Source: Lachnospiraceae bacterium (GTDB taxonomy: Bacteria > Bacillota > Clostridia > Lachnospirales > Lachnospiraceae). From it: a stretch of DNA of 48,579 nucleotides. Below the pieces are notes generated by a model. That model ran no database searches. It was not told where the DNA came from and saw nothing but the letters and a program-made list of their open reading frames with translations. The first letter of the stretch is position 1. Every line of letters begins with the position of its first letter. The position numbers and the translations under genes were made by a program. The stretch spans positions 1 to 48,579 of the forward strand of contig JAFSPF010000094.1 in NCBI GenBank assembly GCA_017443065.1, given 5' to 3'. Positions 6,159-33,469 of the stretch are shown here, in pieces.

Positions 6159-6176
6159 TTGATTTCGCGAAATCAA
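6159..6176. promoter_or_regulatory. 18-bp perfect palindrome upstream of the coiled protein gene
   Basis: TTGATTTCGCGAAATCAA is a perfect palindrome 21 bases before the start at 6198 and just before its ribosome site. Upstream, GCCGATAT at 6125-6132 matches the -10 element used by flagellar-type sigma-28/sigma-D factors, but no matching TAAA -35 element is at the right distance. The palindrome could be an operator or an mRNA hairpin. Confidence 0.4.
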
Positions 6177-6197
6177 TAACAAGGAGGTGATGTTCAA

Positions 6198-6800
6198 ATG
6201 GATGTGAACAGCGTATCAAGCGCAACAGCCACCTATGCGGCGTATTCCACAGGGGCGGCGAAGGAGGCGCAGAAGACGGAGGAGGCCAAGGAGAGCGCGT
6301 CTGCCGTCAAAGCGGAGGAAGCGGCCGTCTACGAGAAATCGGAAGAGGCCAAGGCCTACAAGCCGGACATGCAGAAGGTGCAGCAGATGCTGCAGGATTC
6401 CGAGGCGCGTGTCCAGCAGTTCCGCGACATGATCCAGAAGATGTTCGGCCAGCAGGCAAAGACCAACGACCTTGCGGAGGGCATCTGGCAGAAGCTTGCG
6501 AGCGGTGATTTCACCGTCGATGCCGCCACCAAGGCACAGGCGCAGGCCGATGTCTCCGAGGACGGGTACTGGGGCGTGAAACAGACGTCCGAGCGCATTC
6601 TGGATTTTGCCAAGACCCTGGCGGGCTCTGACCCGGAAAAGCTCGAAAAGATGCGTTCCGCGTTCGAAAAGGGCTACAAGATGGCGGAAAAGACCTGGGG
6701 CGGCGAGCTCCCGGAAATCTCCAAAAAGACCTATGACGCGGTCATGAAGGGCTTTGACGAACTGAAGGAAGGCGTGAAGGAAGGCGAAGTGGCAGCGTAA
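6198..6800 (+). CDS. Soluble helical protein of unknown function
   Basis: This 200-residue protein has no signal peptide. The first 60 residues are low-complexity, rich in Ala, Glu and Lys. A predicted helical region follows (VQQMLQDSEARVQQFRDMIQ, then KMFGQQAKTN). A more conserved-looking core (DGYWGVKQTSERILDFAKTL and KGYKMAEKTWGGELPEISKK) completes it. I believe similar proteins occur in Lachnospiraceae but know of no assigned role. The ribosome site is nearly ideal (AAGGAGGTGAT at 6181-6191), which suggests high expression. The gene stands alone with its own terminator and faces the next gene tail to tail. Confidence 0.6.
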   Translation: MDVNSVSSATATYAAYSTGAAKEAQKTEEAKESASAVKAEEAAVYEKSEEAKAYKPDMQKVQQMLQDSEARVQQFRDMIQKMFGQQAKTNDLAEGIWQKLASGDFTVDAATKAQAQADVSEDGYWGVKQTSERILDFAKTLAGSDPEKLEKMRSAFEKGYKMAEKTWGGELPEISKKTYDAVMKGFDELKEGVKEGEVAA

Positions 6801-6824
6801 CAAGCAGAAAACTCCGAAAAAAAA

Positions 6825-6856
6825 GGGCTCCGCGCATCGTGCGCGGGGCCTTTTTT
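6825..6856. terminator. Bidirectional terminator between convergent genes
   Basis: GGCTCCGCGCA (6826-6836) pairs with TGCGCGGGGCC (6840-6850) around TCG. TTTTTT follows on the plus strand and an A-run precedes it, so it can end transcripts from both sides. It lies between the stop codons of 6198-6800 and 6875-7339. Confidence 0.85.
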
Positions 6857-6874
6857 ACTTCCGGTAAAAAGCGC

Positions 6875-7339
6875 TTATTTGACCGGTCTGGCACCGGCCT
6901 TTTCCTGCATACGCTGTGTCCAGCGCGCAAAGCGTCCTTTTTTGGTCTGCTCCTGCGGTGCGATCGGGCCGTGCAGACCCTTTACGGAATTGACGTAGAT
7001 GCCGCTGAGGGAGGCCTTGACCTCCTTTTTCACCGGTACCTGGTCAAAGATGGCATTGTCACAGACGAGGTTCATGATCTGCGGACCGATCTTGACCTTT
7101 AAGACCGGAACCTTGGCCCTGCGCTGCAGGGCGGAGGCCTGTTCCATCACGGAATCCGGAAGCCCGGACTCCTTCAGCTTCATCATCTTCTTGTCGATGA
7201 TGAACATGGTGACCTGTTGCGCCGCGGCGGCTAGCTGTTCCTGAGAGCCTTCCTGTTTTTTCTGAAGACGTCTGCCGACGATATAAAGCACCAGCAGTAC
7301 GGCGGCAACTACGGCCAGAATAATCAAAAATACGGTCAA
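6875..7339 (-). CDS. Conserved membrane-anchored protein, unknown function
   Basis: The 154-residue protein begins with one transmembrane helix (FLIILAVVAAVLLVLYIVG) and basic residues that keep the rest in the cytoplasm. The soluble part has a conserved-looking core (VTMFIIDKKMMKLKESGLP, VPVLKVKIGPQIMNLVCD, VPVKKEVKASLSGIYV). This matches a small family I recall from Lachnospiraceae genomes that has no assigned function. The K-K-M-M-K-L-K pattern and the strand-rich middle suggest a small folded domain rather than a leader. It is transcribed alone, convergent with 6198-6800. Confidence 0.6.
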   Translation of the reverse strand: MTVFLIILAVVAAVLLVLYIVGRRLQKKQEGSQEQLAAAAQQVTMFIIDKKMMKLKESGLPDSVMEQASALQRRAKVPVLKVKIGPQIMNLVCDNAIFDQVPVKKEVKASLSGIYVNSVKGLHGPIAPQEQTKKGRFARWTQRMQEKAGARPVK

Positions 7340-27520: not shown

Positions 27521-28089
27521 TGAACTATGGTGAAATAAAGAAAGTTGATATTGCGAACGGCCCGGGCGTGAGGGTTTCCCTCTTCGTCTCGGGCTGTACG
27601 CATCACTGCCCGGGCTGCTTCAACGCGGACACCTGGGACTTTGGCTTCGGGAAGGAATATACTGCCGGAACGCAGGAGGAGATCCTCGAAGCGCTGTCCC
27701 CTCCGCATATTGCGGGGCTTACCGTGCTCGGCGGAGAGCCCTTTGAGCCGGACAACCAGCGCGAACTTCTGCCGCTGATCCGCGAGGTGCGCAGCCGCTT
27801 CCCGGAAAAATCCGTCTGGATGTATTCCGGATATCTCTTTGACCGCGAAATCTTAAGCACACTGCCTGCGGGAGAGGTCCTGCCGGAGCCCCCGGTCTGG
27901 GTTCCCTACCGCAGCGCGCACTGCGAGGTGACGGACGAGCTGCTCTCTCTCATCGATGTGCTCGTCGACGGCAAATTCATTGCCGCCGAAAAGGATCTTT
28001 CCCTTCGCTTCCGCGGTTCCCGCAACCAGCGTCTGATCGACGTGCAGGCCTCACTTTCCGCCGGTACGGTCACGCTCTGGCAGGGGTGA
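27520..28089 (+). CDS. nrdG: Anaerobic ribonucleotide reductase activating enzyme (radical SAM)
   Basis: This 189-residue radical SAM protein makes the glycyl radical on NrdD. It has the CTHHCPGCFNADTW cluster motif (CX3CX2C) that holds the 4Fe-4S centre, and LTVLGGEPFEPDNQRELLPL, the SAM-binding GGEP region. The start ATG overlaps the nrdD stop as TAATG. The C-terminal part (DVLVDGKFIAAEKDLSLRFR, then GSRNQRLIDV) is typical of the family. It needs no separate promoter. Confidence 0.95.
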   Translation: MNYGEIKKVDIANGPGVRVSLFVSGCTHHCPGCFNADTWDFGFGKEYTAGTQEEILEALSPPHIAGLTVLGGEPFEPDNQRELLPLIREVRSRFPEKSVWMYSGYLFDREILSTLPAGEVLPEPPVWVPYRSAHCEVTDELLSLIDVLVDGKFIAAEKDLSLRFRGSRNQRLIDVQASLSAGTVTLWQG

Positions 28090-28115
28090 GGGGATGGCGG
28101 GACAGGAGTGGAGTG

Positions 28116-28124
28116 TGGTATACT
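28116..28124 (+). promoter_or_regulatory. Extended -10 promoter of the Uma2-family gene
   Basis: TGGTATACT is an extended -10 element 46 bases before the start codon. The 11-mer TGTGGTATACT occurs again at 32148-32158 before the thioesterase gene, so it seems to be a favoured local promoter form. Confidence 0.5.
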
Positions 28125-28170
28125 GAACAAATGAGAATGCGGAGAAGGTTTTACGCAGGCGGAGGTGATA

Positions 28171-28734
28171 ATGCCCTTACCGAAAACGAATTCTGAAATA
28201 ACAAGCGCATGGGAGGAGTATCTCGCGCTCCCGGAAACCATCATGGCGGAGTTCATCGACGGTGAGATCTATATGATGGCGTCACCGAACAGGAGACATC
28301 AGAAACTGGCTGGTGAATTGTTTTATGCAATCCAGTCCCGCATAAAGGAGAAGGGCGGATCCTGCGAGGTCTATCCCGCCCCCTTCGGCGTGAAGCTTTT
28401 TGAGGACAAAAATGATACCGTGGAGCCGGATATCAGCGTGATCTGCGATAAAAGCAAGTTGACGGATGCCGGTTGTGCCGGCGCGCCGGACTGGGTGATC
28501 GAGATCGTGAGCCCTTCCGACGCGAAACACGATTATGTGGACAAGTTAAAGCTTTATCTGGATGCGGGTGTTCCGGAGTACTGGATTGTGGATCCGACGG
28601 AAGAGATCGTCACCGCGTATCATCTGCAGGAGGAGCAGTTCCGCTTCGACCGTTACACCTTTGCGGACCAAATCCCCGCAGCGATGGATAAAAGCTTTTT
28701 CATCGACTTTCCGGAAATCAAAAAGACACTGTAA
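28171..28734 (+). CDS. Uma2-family (DUF820) PD-(D/E)XK nuclease-like protein
   Basis: The ATG at 28171 lies 5 bases after GGAGG. The 187-residue protein has the Uma2 pattern: AEFIDGEIYMMASPNRRHQK near the start, VEPDISVICDKSKL with the acidic residue, and PDWVIEIVSPSDAKHDYVDK. The last of these supplies the E-x-V/K part of a PD-(D/E)XK nuclease fold, followed by KLKLYLDAGVPEYWIVDPTE. The family is widespread and often amplified, and its physiological role is not settled. It stands alone after nrdG. Confidence 0.85.
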   Translation: MPLPKTNSEITSAWEEYLALPETIMAEFIDGEIYMMASPNRRHQKLAGELFYAIQSRIKEKGGSCEVYPAPFGVKLFEDKNDTVEPDISVICDKSKLTDAGCAGAPDWVIEIVSPSDAKHDYVDKLKLYLDAGVPEYWIVDPTEEIVTAYHLQEEQFRFDRYTFADQIPAAMDKSFFIDFPEIKKTL

Positions 28735-28735
28735 G

Positions 28736-28804
28736 CATAACGAAAAGAATACTACCGTTCTTCGGGAAATGATCATTTCCTGATTCCTCATAACGAAAAA
28801 AATA
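28736..28804. repeat. Two 16-bp direct repeats flanking a 16-bp palindrome
   Basis: CATAACGAAAAGAATA (28736-28751) recurs as CATAACGAAAAAAATA (28789-28804), with one difference in 16. Between them lies the perfect palindrome GGAAATGATCATTTCC (28765-28780). The block is upstream of the lipoprotein gene at 28902, which has a possible CATAAT -10 at 28850-28855. It looks like a regulatory region. Confidence 0.5.
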
Positions 28805-28901
28805 ACGATTTTTCAAAAAACATAAAACCTTTTCTGCCTTCTGATTGTCATAATAGTGTAACCCGCACATTCGAGGTTTTTTTGGCAATGAAGGAGGAGT
28901 C

Positions 28902-30035
28902 ATGAAGACAGGATCACAACACAAATCATTTTTTACAGCGTTACTGACGGGGGCACTTTGCCTGATCACGGCCTGTGGCGGAGGCAGCGGTAATTCCGCA
29001 ACGAATGCGGGCAGTACCGGCAAGGCTGCGGTAGCGGTATCTTCTGCGCCGGCTGCCGCTTCAACAAACGAGGCAGCGGACACAGCGGCGGCAGAGGACT
29101 CCGCGGCGGCTGCGGAGGAGAGGGCGGCCATGGAGCAGGAGGCTGCCAAAGCCAAGGAGGAAGAGGAGAGCGGTGCGCAGGGAGCGGCAGGAGGTGTTGC
29201 AGAAACACCGGATGATGCCTTTGCGGGGATCCGTGTGCAGGATAATGTGCTGTTCGACGAAGAGGGAATCAAAATCACCTTTGAAGGCTGCAGAGTGGAA
29301 AATGGCAATGTAAACTTTATATTCCAGCAGGAAAACAACCATCCGGACAACAAGAAAATGCAGTTCGGTCCGGTTTCGATCAATATCAACAGGCTGCATG
29401 TCGAGTCTTCCGGGAAGGGGCGTATCAGCCTCCGCTCGAGTCAGTCATCGGATGTCTATGAACTGGAAAGCGGAGAAAAAGTGAAGACGGAATCCTGGCC
29501 CGGATATGAGACAAGAAACTATCCCCGCCTGCTGGCACTACTCGGAACGGAGGTAAAAGATTTTCCGATCGAATGCATTTCCTTTGACTTCTTTGTGCAG
29601 ATCGGCAGCGACGGGAAAAGGGATTACCGTAGCGTTACATTGCAGACAGAAGCCTACAACGGTGATTCCTATATGCAGTTGTATGGTGAACACTGCGGGA
29701 CAACCCACATCAGCGGAATCGATGTATATGGAAGATATGACGAAACAGGCTACACGGTGGTGTTCCTTCCGACAGGAGAACGCGTCGAAAGCGAAAGTAT
29801 CGGCGCTTATAAACTGGCCGTCAACGGAAAAGAACTGGAGAAGAAAGAAACGACAGATATGACCATCCCGAGTGGTATGGGGACCGTGTATCCTTCCGGC
29901 GGAATCGTGCTACACACCTCGCAGACAGAGGATGAAATCAGAAAGAGCCTGGAGATCGGCAATGACGAGCCGCTGGAGTTTCAACTGCTTAACTACAATT
30001 TGCCGGGCGGTTTGATGACGCTTTTCACAAAGTAA
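28902..30035 (+). CDS. Lipoprotein with low-complexity linker and unknown outer domain
   Basis: This 377-residue protein has a lipobox (GALCLITAC, Cys25). An Ala/Ser/Glu-rich linker follows to about residue 105, including a charged helical piece (ERAAMEQEAAKAKEEEESG). A folded domain of about 270 residues ends the protein. Patterns such as GIKITFEGCRVENGNVNFIF and PIECISFDFFVQIGSDGKRD suggest beta strands like those in clostridial lipoproteins of unknown role. A strong GAAGGAGGAG ribosome site precedes the ATG. The HicB-like and sigma-fusion genes follow closely on the same strand, so it may be part of the same regulated unit. Confidence 0.6.
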   Translation: MKTGSQHKSFFTALLTGALCLITACGGGSGNSATNAGSTGKAAVAVSSAPAAASTNEAADTAAAEDSAAAAEERAAMEQEAAKAKEEEESGAQGAAGGVAETPDDAFAGIRVQDNVLFDEEGIKITFEGCRVENGNVNFIFQQENNHPDNKKMQFGPVSININRLHVESSGKGRISLRSSQSSDVYELESGEKVKTESWPGYETRNYPRLLALLGTEVKDFPIECISFDFFVQIGSDGKRDYRSVTLQTEAYNGDSYMQLYGEHCGTTHISGIDVYGRYDETGYTVVFLPTGERVESESIGAYKLAVNGKELEKKETTDMTIPSGMGTVYPSGGIVLHTSQTEDEIRKSLEIGNDEPLEFQLLNYNLPGGLMTLFTK

Positions 30036-30060
30036 AAACCCGGCGGAAGGGAGGCGGGCG

Positions 30061-30372
30061 ATGAAGGACAAAGAGATACAGTTCTTCCGCTATCTGGCAC
30101 TGCTGGACCGGGAGGACGGGACAACAAAAGTCATCAGAGAGGATGAAGGGGACGCCATGAAACCGACGGGCTATGAAGTGATCATCTGGTGGAGCGTGGA
30201 AGACAGGTGTTATATCGCAGAGGTACCGGAGCTTTCGGGCTGCCGTGCGGACGGAGGATCCCTGCCGGAGGTGGCCGTGGCAGTGGAAAAAAGCATTGAA
30301 CTCCGGATTTCCGAGATGAAGGCGCAGGGATTGAGCATCCCTGCGCCGCGCGGACGGCTCTTATATGCCTGA
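30061..30372 (+). CDS. Solitary HicB-like protein
   Basis: The 103-residue protein contains a HicB-type domain from about residue 38 (GYEVIIWWSVEDRCYIAEVP, ELSGCRADGGSLPEVAVAVE). This is the partial RNase-H-like fold of HicB antitoxins. The usual HicA toxin (a double-stranded-RNA-binding protein of about 60 residues) is not encoded next to it on either strand, and there is no C-terminal DNA-binding domain. The N-terminal 37 residues are extra. It lies 25 bases after the lipoprotein gene and 68 before the sigma-fusion gene. A regulatory rather than toxin-antitoxin role is possible. Confidence 0.7.
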   Translation: MKDKEIQFFRYLALLDREDGTTKVIREDEGDAMKPTGYEVIIWWSVEDRCYIAEVPELSGCRADGGSLPEVAVAVEKSIELRISEMKAQGLSIPAPRGRLLYA

Positions 30373-30440
30373 AACTGTGCTTGAAAAGGGAACAGAGAAA
30401 CGATAGGATAGAAGATATTTTTCGGGGAGGAATGACAGAT

Positions 30441-32108
30441 ATGGAACAACAGCAATACACGATGGAAAGCGCAGTTCTCGCTGCACAGCAGGACAAGGCG
30501 GACGCGTTTGCTTTCCTTTACGAAAATACCTGGGAGAGCAAATTCCGCGTTGCCAGACAGTATATGAAAAATGATGCCGACGCGGAGGATGTTCTGCAGG
30601 AAGCGTATCTGAGAGCCTGGAAGAGCCTGAAGACACTGAAGGACCCGGGGACGTTTTCTTCCTGGCTGACAACGATTGTGTCACGCACGGCATTGAATAC
30701 ACTGAAGAGAAAACAGCCGCTGCTGTTTTCCGAAATGGATGCGGAAAACGAGGATGGCGAGGCTTATACCTGGGAGCAGGAGGACTTCCGCACGGAGTAC
30801 CGTCCGGAGCAAGCCTATACGGAGCAGGAACGCAGGATCATCCTGCATGAAATGATCGATTCCCTCTCAGATGAGCAGAGGATGTGCGTACTGATGTATT
30901 ATGTCGACGAGCAGCCGGTGAAGGATATCGCGGAAGCCGCAGGCTGCCCGGAAAACACCGTCAAATCCCGCCTGAATTACGGGCGAAAAAAGTTAAAGGC
31001 GAAGGCGGAGGAACTGGAGAAGAAAGGATATCACCTCTACGGGCTCCCGGCAGCAGGCCTGTTGCGTTACCTGTTGAAGGATACGGAACTCTCAACGGAA
31101 GAAGCCGGTGTGATCCGCGAAGCGATGAGACGTTCGGCAGAAAAGGTTTTGCGGGAGAGTGGGTCAGCAGGCATGTATGCGGAGCTGGTCGCGGAGGGCG
31201 TGGCAGCGAAGTCCGCCGGTACGGCTGCAGTCGCTGCTTCCGGCCTGGGGATCAAAGTCGCTGCGGCGGTGATCGGTGTTGCGCTGATCGGCGGAATTTA
31301 CGGTGTTTCCCGCTTCGGCGGTGGGGCGGGTACGGAACAGGCATCCACGGCGGAGCTGACGGCGGAAAGTGAAGGAGATACGACCACGGGCGAAACATCG
31401 GATGCAGGCGTGACGAACGGCCCGGAAGAAGGCGGAAGCGGAGCAGGTGAAGCGGACAACCGCCCGGAGATTCCCGACAGTGGTTTTGTGGATGAAGAGA
31501 CAGCACGGGCGATACAGGAAACCCTGCCGACGGAGGCCAGGGCACGGATCGAACGAGATCTCGCAGGGCTTGAAGAAGGGGATGGCGTGCAGTGGCTTTA
31601 TTTTGATGATGATCCCTACCCCGAACTGCTGATCACGGACACGTCCACGGTGGAGGAGCAGGGCACCCCGACCTATTACATGTTTTACGGTGCAACGGGG
31701 GAACAGATCCGCATGAGGATGCGGGGACAGGAGGCTCCTTTCCAACTGCTCGGGTATCTCAACGGCGGACAATACTTTGTACCCGGTGAGGGGCTGATTC
31801 TGGATGAGCATTTTCAGGACGAAGGCAGGACCGGTGACATAAGCGAAATGGTGACAATGGTATTTCGTATGGAAGAGCCGGGTTTCATTGACTATCAGTA
31901 TATTTTGTCCCGTTCCAACTGGGAGGTGGATACTTCCGTTGACCCTGCGGTACGCAAACTGCTGCCGGAGGGGATTTACCGCTATCAGATGGCCGACGAA
32001 AACATGCAACCATCCGACATCACGGAGGAGGAATACATCCGCCTGCATTATTATGAAGACGCCAGGCATCTGTCCGGTACCGGCTGGCCAAACGGCTTTC
32101 CGGACTGA
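30441..32108 (+). CDS. ECF sigma factor fused to a transmembrane helix and extracytoplasmic domain
   Basis: The ATG at 30441 follows GGGGAGG by 10 bases and gives 555 residues. Residues 20-95 form sigma region 2 (ARQYMKNDADAEDVLQEAYL) and about 140-187 form region 4 (SDEQRMCVLMYYVDEQPVKD, then GCPENTVKSRLNYGRKKL). A helical linker follows, then one transmembrane helix at about 268-289 (IKVAAAVIGVALIGGIYGVS). A Thr/Gly/Glu-rich spacer and an outer domain of about 190 residues (LEEGDGVQWLYFDDDPYPEL ...) complete the chain. A sigma factor tied to the membrane would need release, perhaps by proteolysis, to reach most promoters. The frame is continuous, with no sign of an artefactual join. Confidence 0.85.
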   Translation: MEQQQYTMESAVLAAQQDKADAFAFLYENTWESKFRVARQYMKNDADAEDVLQEAYLRAWKSLKTLKDPGTFSSWLTTIVSRTALNTLKRKQPLLFSEMDAENEDGEAYTWEQEDFRTEYRPEQAYTEQERRIILHEMIDSLSDEQRMCVLMYYVDEQPVKDIAEAAGCPENTVKSRLNYGRKKLKAKAEELEKKGYHLYGLPAAGLLRYLLKDTELSTEEAGVIREAMRRSAEKVLRESGSAGMYAELVAEGVAAKSAGTAAVAASGLGIKVAAAVIGVALIGGIYGVSRFGGGAGTEQASTAELTAESEGDTTTGETSDAGVTNGPEEGGSGAGEADNRPEIPDSGFVDEETARAIQETLPTEARARIERDLAGLEEGDGVQWLYFDDDPYPELLITDTSTVEEQGTPTYYMFYGATGEQIRMRMRGQEAPFQLLGYLNGGQYFVPGEGLILDEHFQDEGRTGDISEMVTMVFRMEEPGFIDYQYILSRSNWEVDTSVDPAVRKLLPEGIYRYQMADENMQPSDITEEEYIRLHYYEDARHLSGTGWPNGFPD

Positions 32109-32128
32109 GCAGTAACATCAAGCCGCTT

Positions 32129-32158
32129 TTGACCGCGTTTTTCTGCCTGTGGTATACT
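32129..32158 (+). promoter_or_regulatory. Promoter of the acyl-ACP thioesterase gene
   Basis: TTGACC (32129-32134) and TATACT (32153-32158, in TGTGGTATACT) are spaced 18 bases apart. Transcription should begin within a few bases of the ATG at 32166, so the message may lack a leader. No Shine-Dalgarno sequence is present. Confidence 0.6.
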
Positions 32159-32174
32159 TGATTGCATGTATACC
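32151..32174. promoter_or_regulatory. Inverted repeat across the -10 and start codon
   Basis: GGTATAC (32151-32157) and GTATACC (32168-32174) form a perfect inverted repeat with a 10-base centre. It covers the -10 element and the first codons, an ideal place for a repressor. No known fatty-acid regulator site (FapR or FabT type) was recognised in it. Confidence 0.5.
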
Positions 32175-32945
32175 TATGATTCCCGCATTCGTTACAGTGA
32201 AACGGATACCGATTTACAACTGACGATCGAGGCGCTGATTAATTATTTTCAGGACGCCTCCACCTTTCAGACGCAGGATGCCGGCGCGGGCTGGCATTAT
32301 CTGCATGAGCAGGGTCTGGCCTGGGTGCTGGCCTACTGGCAGATTGATATCAGGAGGCTGCCGGCGCTGTATGAGCGCGTGCGGATCGGCACGGTGCCGT
32401 ATGCCCTGAAGGGCTTTTCCGGCCTGCGCAATTACTGCATGGATGCGCTGGATGAGGACGGAAGAGAAACCGGGGAGCGTCTTGCGGTGGCCAATTCCTT
32501 CTGGGCGCTGATGGACATGAAGGACATGGTGCCCGCGCGGATCTCGGAGGAGCACGCCTCGCACTATGCGCTGGAAGAGAAGCTCGAAATGGAATACCGT
32601 GACCGCAAGATCCGCCTGCCGAAGGAAGAGGGGGTGCAGGGTGTTCCCGTCACGGTGCATTCCCATCATCTGGATTCCAACGGCCATGTCAACAACGGAC
32701 AGTACGTGGCGATCGCGATGGAGGCACTGGCGGAGTCCGGAGATGAAATCGCCTCGCATTTCACAAGAGAACACGGTGCGAAGGTGAAACGTCTCCGTGC
32801 GGAATACAAAAAGCAGGCGCATTTGGGGGACGTGCTGCTGCCCTTCTTTTTTGAACAGGGAGAAGAAGAGAACGGCACAAGGGTCCTGATCGTGGATCTC
32901 AGGCTTTCGGGAGAGAGCTGTTGTGTGGTGGAGATCAGCGCTTAA
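32166..32945 (+). CDS. Acyl-ACP thioesterase
   Basis: The 259-residue protein is a double-hotdog acyl-acyl carrier protein thioesterase of the FatA/FatB type. It releases free fatty acids from the fatty-acid synthesis carrier. The first hotdog has YSETDTDLQLTIEALINYFQ and WVLAYWQIDIRRLPALYERV. The second has the active-site-type motif HHLDSNGHVNNGQYV. The start is the ATG at 32166, next to the promoter and with no ribosome site. The end overlaps the stop codon of the convergent macrodomain gene by 4 bases. Other fatty-acid genes are absent here, though bioY (biotin uptake for acetyl-CoA carboxylase) is close by. Confidence 0.88.
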   Translation: MYTYDSRIRYSETDTDLQLTIEALINYFQDASTFQTQDAGAGWHYLHEQGLAWVLAYWQIDIRRLPALYERVRIGTVPYALKGFSGLRNYCMDALDEDGRETGERLAVANSFWALMDMKDMVPARISEEHASHYALEEKLEMEYRDRKIRLPKEEGVQGVPVTVHSHHLDSNGHVNNGQYVAIAMEALAESGDEIASHFTREHGAKVKRLRAEYKKQAHLGDVLLPFFFEQGEEENGTRVLIVDLRLSGESCCVVEISA

Positions 32946-33469
32946 AGAAGGCCCATCGCCTGCCGGTAGACCTGAAGCATTTCTTCGTCAAAGCAGACCA
33001 CAATCACACGGATATCATAAGAGGGGTTTTCCTTTTGCCATGCGTCGATGGCTTTCACCGTGATCTGCGCGGCCTCCTCCGCGGGATAGCCGTAGGAGCC
33101 GGCGGAGATGGCGGGAAAGGCGATGCTGTGAAGATCGTTTTCCTTTGCAAGATTCAGGGAATTCCGGTAGCATTCCGCAAGGAGCAGGGGCTCTTCCTCC
33201 GCGCCGGTATAAACGGGGCCAACGGTGTGAATGATATGCTTTGCCGGCAGCGCGTGACCGCCGGTGATCTTTGCCTCACCGGTTTCACAGCCGTTCAGCG
33301 TCCAGCACTCCGTCTGAAGCCCGGGGCCTGCGGCGGAATGAATGGCAAGATCGACACCGCCGAGACCGGCGAGCAGCGTTTTATTGGCGGCATTGACAAT
33401 CGCGTCCACCGGAAGTGTCGTGATATCGCCGACAAGCAGTTCAATTTGGTATTCCTGAATTTGCGACAT
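32942..33469 (-). CDS. Macrodomain protein (ADP-ribose / O-acetyl-ADP-ribose hydrolase type)
   Basis: This 175-residue single-domain protein has the macrodomain signatures VDAIVNAANKTLLAGLGGVD, ITGGHALPAKHIIHTVGP, and IAFPAISAGSYGYPAEEAAQ. They match YmdB-type enzymes that hydrolyse O-acetyl-ADP-ribose or remove ADP-ribose. The usual GGGGVD loop is GLGGVD here, a mild change. A sirtuin, whose product is O-acetyl-ADP-ribose, is encoded 2.5 kb away at 35440-36156. The gene is convergent with the thioesterase and overlaps its end by 4 bases. Confidence 0.9.
   Translation of the reverse strand: MSQIQEYQIELLVGDITTLPVDAIVNAANKTLLAGLGGVDLAIHSAAGPGLQTECWTLNGCETGEAKITGGHALPAKHIIHTVGPVYTGAEEEPLLLAECYRNSLNLAKENDLHSIAFPAISAGSYGYPAEEAAQITVKAIDAWQKENPSYDIRVIVVCFDEEMLQVYRQAMGLL

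Follow-up and report, generated by a model that had tools for sequence, protein, structure and literature searches.

ECF signalling usually divides its work between two proteins, an anti-sigma sensor in the membrane and a soluble sigma factor. In IutY of Pseudomonas putida (ECF243), a sigma factor and a membrane anti-sigma part occupy one chain, and experiments have shown that a signal from outside leads to intramembrane cleavage, which frees the sigma factor (PMC8999054). ECF52 (SCO4117 of Streptomyces), ECF48 and ECF53 likewise join a sigma factor, a helix and an outer region in one chain, with a zinc-finger domain before the helix; these groups are described as actinobacterial, and release by cleavage has been proposed for them (PMC5826349, PMC8999054). 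In addition, many C-terminally extended factors are spread over the groups of the 2021 ECF re-classification (PMC8103513).

Here we analysed a 48,579-nt stretch of DNA from a Lachnospiraceae bacterium (GCA_017443065.1, contig JAFSPF010000094.1), hereafter the window, which encodes a one-piece ECF sigma factor with a predicted membrane helix. The initial annotation set this gene apart from most ECF factors as a fusion of sensor and sigma factor; such a fusion is not unique, as the one-chain IutY, ECF48, ECF52 and ECF53 are known (PMC8999054). On balance, and with modest confidence, we favor the reading that the gene encodes a single-pass membrane ECF factor with an outer sensor, which would be autoinhibited, freed on signal, and able to activate its own operon.

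Domain organization of the one-piece factor

The gene (Table 1) is an open frame uninterrupted from ATG to stop, with a GGAGG-type ribosome site, read by eye, 5′ of the ATG. As the initial annotation had stated, the frame continues from sigma regions 2 and 4 through one hydrophobic segment to an outer domain. Pfam finds regions 2 and 4 and no region 3, the layout of ECF (group 4) factors, and the NCBIfam sigma70-ECF model matches the protein at 9.3e-32. The closest relatives of solved structure are ECF factors, the best being SigW over residues 16–189. A domain search of the whole chain returned the sigma regions only, leaving the outer part without a Pfam match. Specifically, Pfam recognized no anti-sigma domain in the 555 residues and no SnoaL or TPR extension of the ECF41/ECF42 type; factors of that type have no membrane helix, and one is predicted here.

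Table 1. Features of the one-piece sigma factor gene and of the region upstream
Feature	Position	Strand	Basis
ECF-type promoter motif AAAACCTTTT-N12-TGTCATA, proposed self-activated operon promoter	28824..28852	+	window and genome motif scans
Lipoprotein gene, first of proposed operon	28902..30035	+	N-terminal lipobox
Small-peptide segment (type A microprotein), start of HicB-like frame	30061..30156	+	HMM match, E=8.3e-8
Weakly HicB-like part	30157..30372	+	UPF0150 and HicB_lk, below curated cut-offs
Possible housekeeping-type promoter before sigma gene	30381..30409	+	TTGAAA-17-TAGGAT, 9/12; weak
One-piece ECF sigma factor gene, 555 aa	30441..32108	+	open frame, Pfam, NCBIfam
Sigma region 2, residues 36–92	30546..30716	+	Pfam PF04542 Sigma70_r2, 60.3 bits, 1.6e-16, over cut-off
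Sigma region 4, residues 134–185	30840..30995	+	Pfam PF08281 Sigma70_r4_2, 52.7 bits, 3.4e-14, over cut-off
Hydrophobic stretch directly after region 4, residues 196–213	31026..31079	+	column conservation, 73 proteins
Predicted transmembrane helix, residues about 268–290	31242..31310	+	hydropathy scan; K272, G284 conserved
Acidic low-complexity spacer, residues 293–345	31317..31475	+	12 D/E vs 1 K/R in 53 residues
Outer domain as searched, residues 343–555, about 210 residues, unnamed fold	31467..32105	+	blastp grouping; profile search

The commonest family residues of the stretch that follows region 4 read G-x-K-L-Y-S-L-A-P-x-P-F-L-L-L-L-L, and the window's copy deviates at several positions. 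The helix was called by a simple hydropathy scan with a threshold, which found a single hydrophobic segment in the protein, with a mean hydropathy of 2.08 over 19 residues (268–286). About 265 residues lie C-terminal of it; the earlier estimate of about 190 for the outer domain is close for the folded part and too low for the whole, which includes the 53-residue spacer. The outer domain as searched has no Pfam match, and a named fold was discarded for it, the best match to a PDB sequence reaching only E=0.3. No Rfam RNA element exceeded threshold in 28000–33000.

A phage origin was considered and rejected: in 50,697 phage records there were 11 matches, none of which spans 80% of the query, and the five of these 11 that were listed all match in the sigma part. 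Two viral-contig scans gave no relative. One 6,179-base record labeled Bacteriophage sp. (MT837799.1:1986-2513) contains a sigma part with 50% identity over residues 27–202, and is possibly bacterial DNA under a phage label.

A conserved one-chain layout with exchanged outer domains

The own genome contains four one-piece genes, namely the window gene and the paralogues C78, C27 and C7. A profile search at the genus level matched 27 of 79 genomes; at least one intact one-piece protein is present in 14 of the 79, the own genome included, and in the other 13 matched genomes the matches are all of soluble length or fragmentary. At the family level, 41 of 397 genomes matched, the own genome included, giving 52 matches, three of them from that genome. 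A protein was scored as one-piece if it had at least 340 residues and a helix beyond residue 225, both cut-offs having been chosen after inspection of the data, and 47 of the 49 family matches outside the own genome are one chain with a helix. The two exceptions are G194, whose sequence starts at the end of a contig and whose helix is at 208–226, and G254, a broken copy without most of region 4 and the linker. The union of a putative sensor and a sigma factor in one molecule, noted by the initial annotation for this gene, is thus the conserved state of a family. A class-level search matched 11 of 291 genomes, the own genome included; two of the matches, G545 and G700 (the latter containing two stops), have the length of soluble factors. 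In addition, 80 named loci were fetched and 14 translated, six of which have the one-piece layout (L039 to L043 and L046); among the loci listed, these six are labeled Clostridia, Defluviitaleaceae, Erysipelotrichales or Erysipelotrichaceae.

A query made of the sigma part alone (192 residues, 200 genomes) is free of linker bias and gave 43 matches. Frames of 447 residues or longer hold 22 of the 23 best, four of them from the own genome, and the lone short frame is the broken copy G254; the 20 weaker matches comprise 10 long and 10 soluble-length frames. Homologues split at the linker, which the initial annotation had named as evidence against its reading, were sought with a profile of linker plus helix in 299 genomes. 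None of its 37 matches, eight of which are the profile's own rows, lies in a short separate gene, and all are in frames of 448 to 1146 residues. Thirty are known one-piece genes. Five of the seven new matches were inspected, and four have sigma part, linker and helix; the fifth, the weak match G193, has a diverged sigma-like start and stays below the hydropathy threshold for a helix. The other two also had sigma matches in the sigma-only query. The linker profile does not recover every known one-piece gene, so that a split gene that has diverged strongly could escape it.

These data bear on whether the layout is an artefact or a product of decay, either a frameshift that joined two genes or a pseudogene. 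Broken copies do exist, in G254 and on contig C61 of G086, where the frame is broken directly after the helix and the outer part is in another frame, but 73 proteins share the layout, the family matches span 38 genera, and no split homologue was found, so that this explanation is largely refuted and hardly tenable. Because the layout is conserved across relatives, we reject a chance fusion or a frameshift; judged by these comparisons, the one-piece layout is a conserved family state.

The layout was aligned over 73 proteins, four of them from the own genome. The set was cleared of fragments and duplicates (G069x, G070x, G089c, G075, G254) and of contig-end pieces (G086b, G086d, G086e). The cut-offs for length (340 residues) and helix position (beyond residue 225) excluded G086c, G194 and the soluble proteins, and 85 residues were trimmed from the overlong start of C78. 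G239 and G494, cut at the locus end, were omitted from one protein set and counted as one-piece in the family tally. In the alignment, the stretch after region 4 has G196 in 66 of 73 proteins and L199 in 65, and the helix has K272 in 53 and G284 in 54, with poor conservation between the two elements.

In a tree of the sigma part (181 columns), one branch with a support of 97 splits 72 one-piece from 38 soluble proteins; the tree was built by a quick method, and its soluble rows are our own choice (11 genus rows, 8 own-genome rows and 19 of the 80 named loci). It was computed without G027, G072, G101, G086b, G086c, G194 and the fragments of the alignment set (G069x, G070x, G089c, G075, G254). 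The window also holds a conventional pair, a soluble ECF sigma factor (153–710) followed by a DUF4367 protein (679–1617) that we take to be a likely anti-sigma factor. The soluble sigma factor of this pair falls outside the one-piece group in the tree.

By contrast with this single group of sigma parts, the 73 outer parts fall into 46 groups (blastp, 1e-4 over 60 residues). Among the 25 of 40 Pfam families listed for 71 members, WG repeats occur in six proteins, YARHG in one, SH3_3 in one and InlK_D3 in two; WG, YARHG and SH3_3 domains are typical of exported proteins. Zn_Ribbon_1 occurs in seven of the 71 one-piece proteins, again among the families listed. Paralogue C7 (L031:3392-5863) has an N-terminal zinc ribbon, and zinc-ribbon-like proteins are also found among the neighbors of the family. 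The window's own outer domain recurs only in paralogue C78 and in G086a by blastp grouping, and its profile matched, in 200 family genomes, the own genome only, plus a marginal match in G213 at 5.7e-4. On sequence grounds, the chain is demonstrably intact, its layout conserved, the sigma parts a single group in the tree, and the outer domains exchanged.

The 60 residues after the helix average 26% D/E and 7% K/R across the family. An excess of K/R lies before the helix in 37 proteins and after it in 21 (p=0.048), a weak positive-inside signal.

Other designs were encountered as well. A separate kind of fusion is seen in L078, L113 and L114: their ECF sigma factors, 432–478 residues in length, have a long C-terminal part in which no membrane helix is predicted. 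In the own genome, the 256-residue frame L009:1384-2154 joins region 4 alone, without region 2, to a membrane helix and DUF4367, and may represent either a decayed gene or a further one-piece design.

Promoter motif, lipoprotein and small peptide upstream of the sigma gene

The ECF-type motif ends 49 bases before the lipoprotein gene and is the window's sole match at up to two mismatches (0.07 expected). Across the 2.83 Mb genome, the longer motif matches exactly only twice, here and before the one-piece paralogue C27. A wider regulon in the own genome was rejected, as a shorter pattern with one mismatch gave 10 sites vs 14 in the reversed control; we therefore limit our claim to the two exact sites. 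No copy of the motif was found at C78, whose sigma part is 59% identical to the window's, or at its relative G086a; a match with three mismatches lies elsewhere in L029, and none in L149.

Within the sigma clade of the window gene, a word-pair search found AAAAC + 17 bases + TGTC in 7 of 19 upstream regions, vs at most four in ten shuffles; over all 75 upstream regions the count was 13, vs at most 11 in shuffles. Fixed motifs were then scanned in 89 upstream regions, which include 42 of the 49 rows of the "other" group. AAAAC-N17-TGTC[AT] is present in 10 of 20 members of the window clade and in none of the 69 other regions, while ATAAA-N17/18-GGTAC marks another sigma clade (8 of 15 members, none of 74 others), with no match to either motif in the reverse-strand and in-gene controls; the promoter pattern and the clade lists were drawn partly from the same loci that they are meant to explain. 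Looser patterns are less specific: relaxing the first motif brings in 5 of 12 members of a third clade, one variant of the second matches once inside a gene, and a generic ECF pattern matches 14 upstream regions, three reverse strands and one gene. Half of the window clade has no clear copy of the motif; in G425 this is because the contig starts there. In G254 (L189), small peptide and promoter motif are kept though the sigma gene is broken.

The motif heads the proposed operon, its sole other exact match precedes a paralogue, and another clade has a different motif; for these reasons the sigma factor likely activates its own operon from this site. A change of motif from clade to clade is expected under self-recognition.

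The same sites bear on an explanation in which the factor is never cut and, while anchored, recruits RNA polymerase to membrane-near DNA in the manner of ToxR-kind regulators. According to PMC10269533, which mentions neither sigma nor ECF, transcription regulators that work while in the membrane are widespread. Both exact sites front one-piece operons, so that a factor still anchored could act on the locus that encodes it. Against this, IutY, named as the sole such factor characterized experimentally, depends on cleavage for its activation, and a truncated form needs no signal to be active (PMC8999054); furthermore, the distance from site to sigma gene is 244 nt in C27 and 1617 nt in the window, so the geometry would differ. 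We consider this explanation unlikely, and keep to a factor that is freed on signal.

The lipoprotein and HicB-like genes, which the initial annotation had put forward as possible partners or targets, probably belong to the sigma gene's operon, since both sit between the ECF-type motif and the sigma gene. The lipoprotein has no Pfam match. A paralogue of it is encoded near C78 (39% over residues 16–377) and a relative adjoins G086a, so that lipoprotein and sigma factor seem to be kept together as a pair. In G137 and G453a the motif likewise precedes a lipoprotein-like gene, with a lipobox seen by eye and not flagged by the script. A self-type promoter and the membership of these genes in its operon are well supported by sequence. 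Housekeeping-type promoter sites number six in the region, vs 2.6 expected. The downstream thioesterase gene has a promoter-like site of its own (32129–32158, 10/12), and for this reason we set it apart from the operon.

Exported products are moderately enriched among adjacent same-strand genes in the loci studied, with 26 of 52 upstream and 25 of 46 downstream vs a background of 38 of 127 in the same loci; in the window, 15 of 44 genes are exported. No protease gene was seen among the adjacent genes examined. A conserved plasmid backbone was considered and dropped, as one neighbor gene gave no plasmid match. In L029, an opposite-strand frame (6168–7175), which looks to us like a transposase-like nuclease, separates the lipoprotein gene from the one-piece gene of C78. 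Upstream of the operon in the window lies a gene for a putative Uma2-family nuclease (28165–28734, 127.4 bits).

The likeness to HicB of the frame (30061–30372) between the lipoprotein and sigma genes is below threshold (UPF0150, 20.6 bits against a cut-off of 27.3; HicB_lk, 19.3 against 27.0). The start of this frame, 31 residues, is instead a member of a family of small type A peptides, about 40 residues long, that accompany related sigma genes. Such a peptide precedes the sigma gene in 14 of 20 clade members, among them G254 and G086b, where that gene is broken or cut by the contig end; 11 of the 14, the window's own sequence among them, are HMM seeds picked by eye, and three were found by the profile. 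The HMM gave no match with E<0.01 in a reversed-DNA control. As in the window, the peptide of G086a is fused to a HicB-like part. Another sigma clade has a different peptide, of 45–60 residues, ahead of seven of its genes (blastp).

These peptides raise the possibility that the small upstream peptide is the real anti-sigma factor and that the membrane part merely localizes or adapts the complex. The recurrence of type A peptides, 12 of the 14 at −30 to 78 nt from the sigma frame, and the presence of a distinct peptide in the other clade would fit such a role. Codon patterns suggest that small peptides are translated in some cases: between C78 and G086a, differences by codon position number 2, 2 and 7, with five silent and five changing codons, and the FFRYLVFRER stretch common to C27 and G086b has four silent and no changing codons. 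Other comparisons are less clear, with 7 silent and 12 changing codons for C27/G086b over 27 codons, 3 and 13 for G137/G453a, and 6 and 13 for G404/G390. In addition, a scan of seven small peptides gave no Pfam match over cut-off, the type A HMM finds no peptide in 6 of 20 clade members or, at E<0.01, in other clades, most type A members are the eye-chosen seeds, and the window's peptide is fused to another domain. We regard a peptide acting as the main lock as distinctly unlikely; in the autoinhibited membrane factor that we favor, it may have an accessory part.

Proposed mechanism and relation to known systems

We infer the topology, signal sensing, autoinhibition and cleavage release as follows. 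Regions 2 and 4 would be cytoplasmic and the C-terminal domain outside, an orientation suggested by the nature of the two halves and by the acidic, polar spacer. The outer domain would read an envelope signal, probably together with the co-transcribed lipoprotein. Until then, the linker would hold the sigma part inactive at the membrane, perhaps via the hydrophobic stretch that follows region 4, the small upstream peptide, or both; anchoring alone is a further candidate silencer. On signal, two-step proteolysis within or close to the membrane helix would most likely free the sigma part. By analogy, release by cleavage is the likeliest route, as it has been shown for IutY and is expected for ECF48, ECF52 and ECF53. 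The free sigma factor would then direct RNA polymerase to the AAAAC-YTTTT-N12-TGTC promoter of its own operon, in the order lipoprotein, small peptide/HicB-like frame, sigma factor.

A Clostridia family that merges sensor and sigma factor would amount to a one-gene system with a swappable sensor and a readable promoter. The small peptides are of interest in themselves, being short, recurring beside related sigma genes, and, in the seven scanned, without Pfam match. More tentatively, and as an unlikely extension, the family could be an undescribed Clostridia class with a fixed sigma-linker-helix core, dozens of unrelated outer sensors, and clade-specific self-promoters and small peptides, in which the peptide is an anti-sigma lock until a lipoprotein-assisted signal arrives. 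We found no title or abstract describing such a Clostridia group in the literature searched on membrane-bound or fused sigma factors; the group may already be numbered in the 2021 ECF re-classification (Casas-Pastor et al.).

The proposed logic of outer sensor, helix and sigma factor inside is that of the two-gene pairs of ECF sigma factor and membrane anti-sigma factor, which consist of two proteins instead of one. ToxR-like regulators likewise have a DNA-directed part inside and a sensor outside in one chain, but that part is a DNA-binding regulator and not a subunit of RNA polymerase. The outer part of IutY is of the FecR type. The window factor resembles IutY in uniting a sigma factor and a membrane part in one chain; it differs in that IutY serves iron cell-surface signaling and the relatives of the window factor are Clostridia, and no FecR-like outer part was found, Pfam giving no match over cut-off beyond the sigma regions. 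ECF52 and the window factor both have a spacer and a sensor-like outer part. However, the HxxxCxxC zinc-finger motif is present in none of the 73 linkers, and no zinc-finger anti-sigma family appears among the 25 of 40 Pfam families listed for one-piece proteins. The window family thus differs from ECF52, ECF48 and ECF53 in lacking the zinc finger, in its other outer domains, and in relatives that belong to Clostridia and Erysipelotrichales. Membrane-fused sigma factors are a known kind, from whose ECF52 type the window factor is set apart by its lack of the zinc finger and by lineage.
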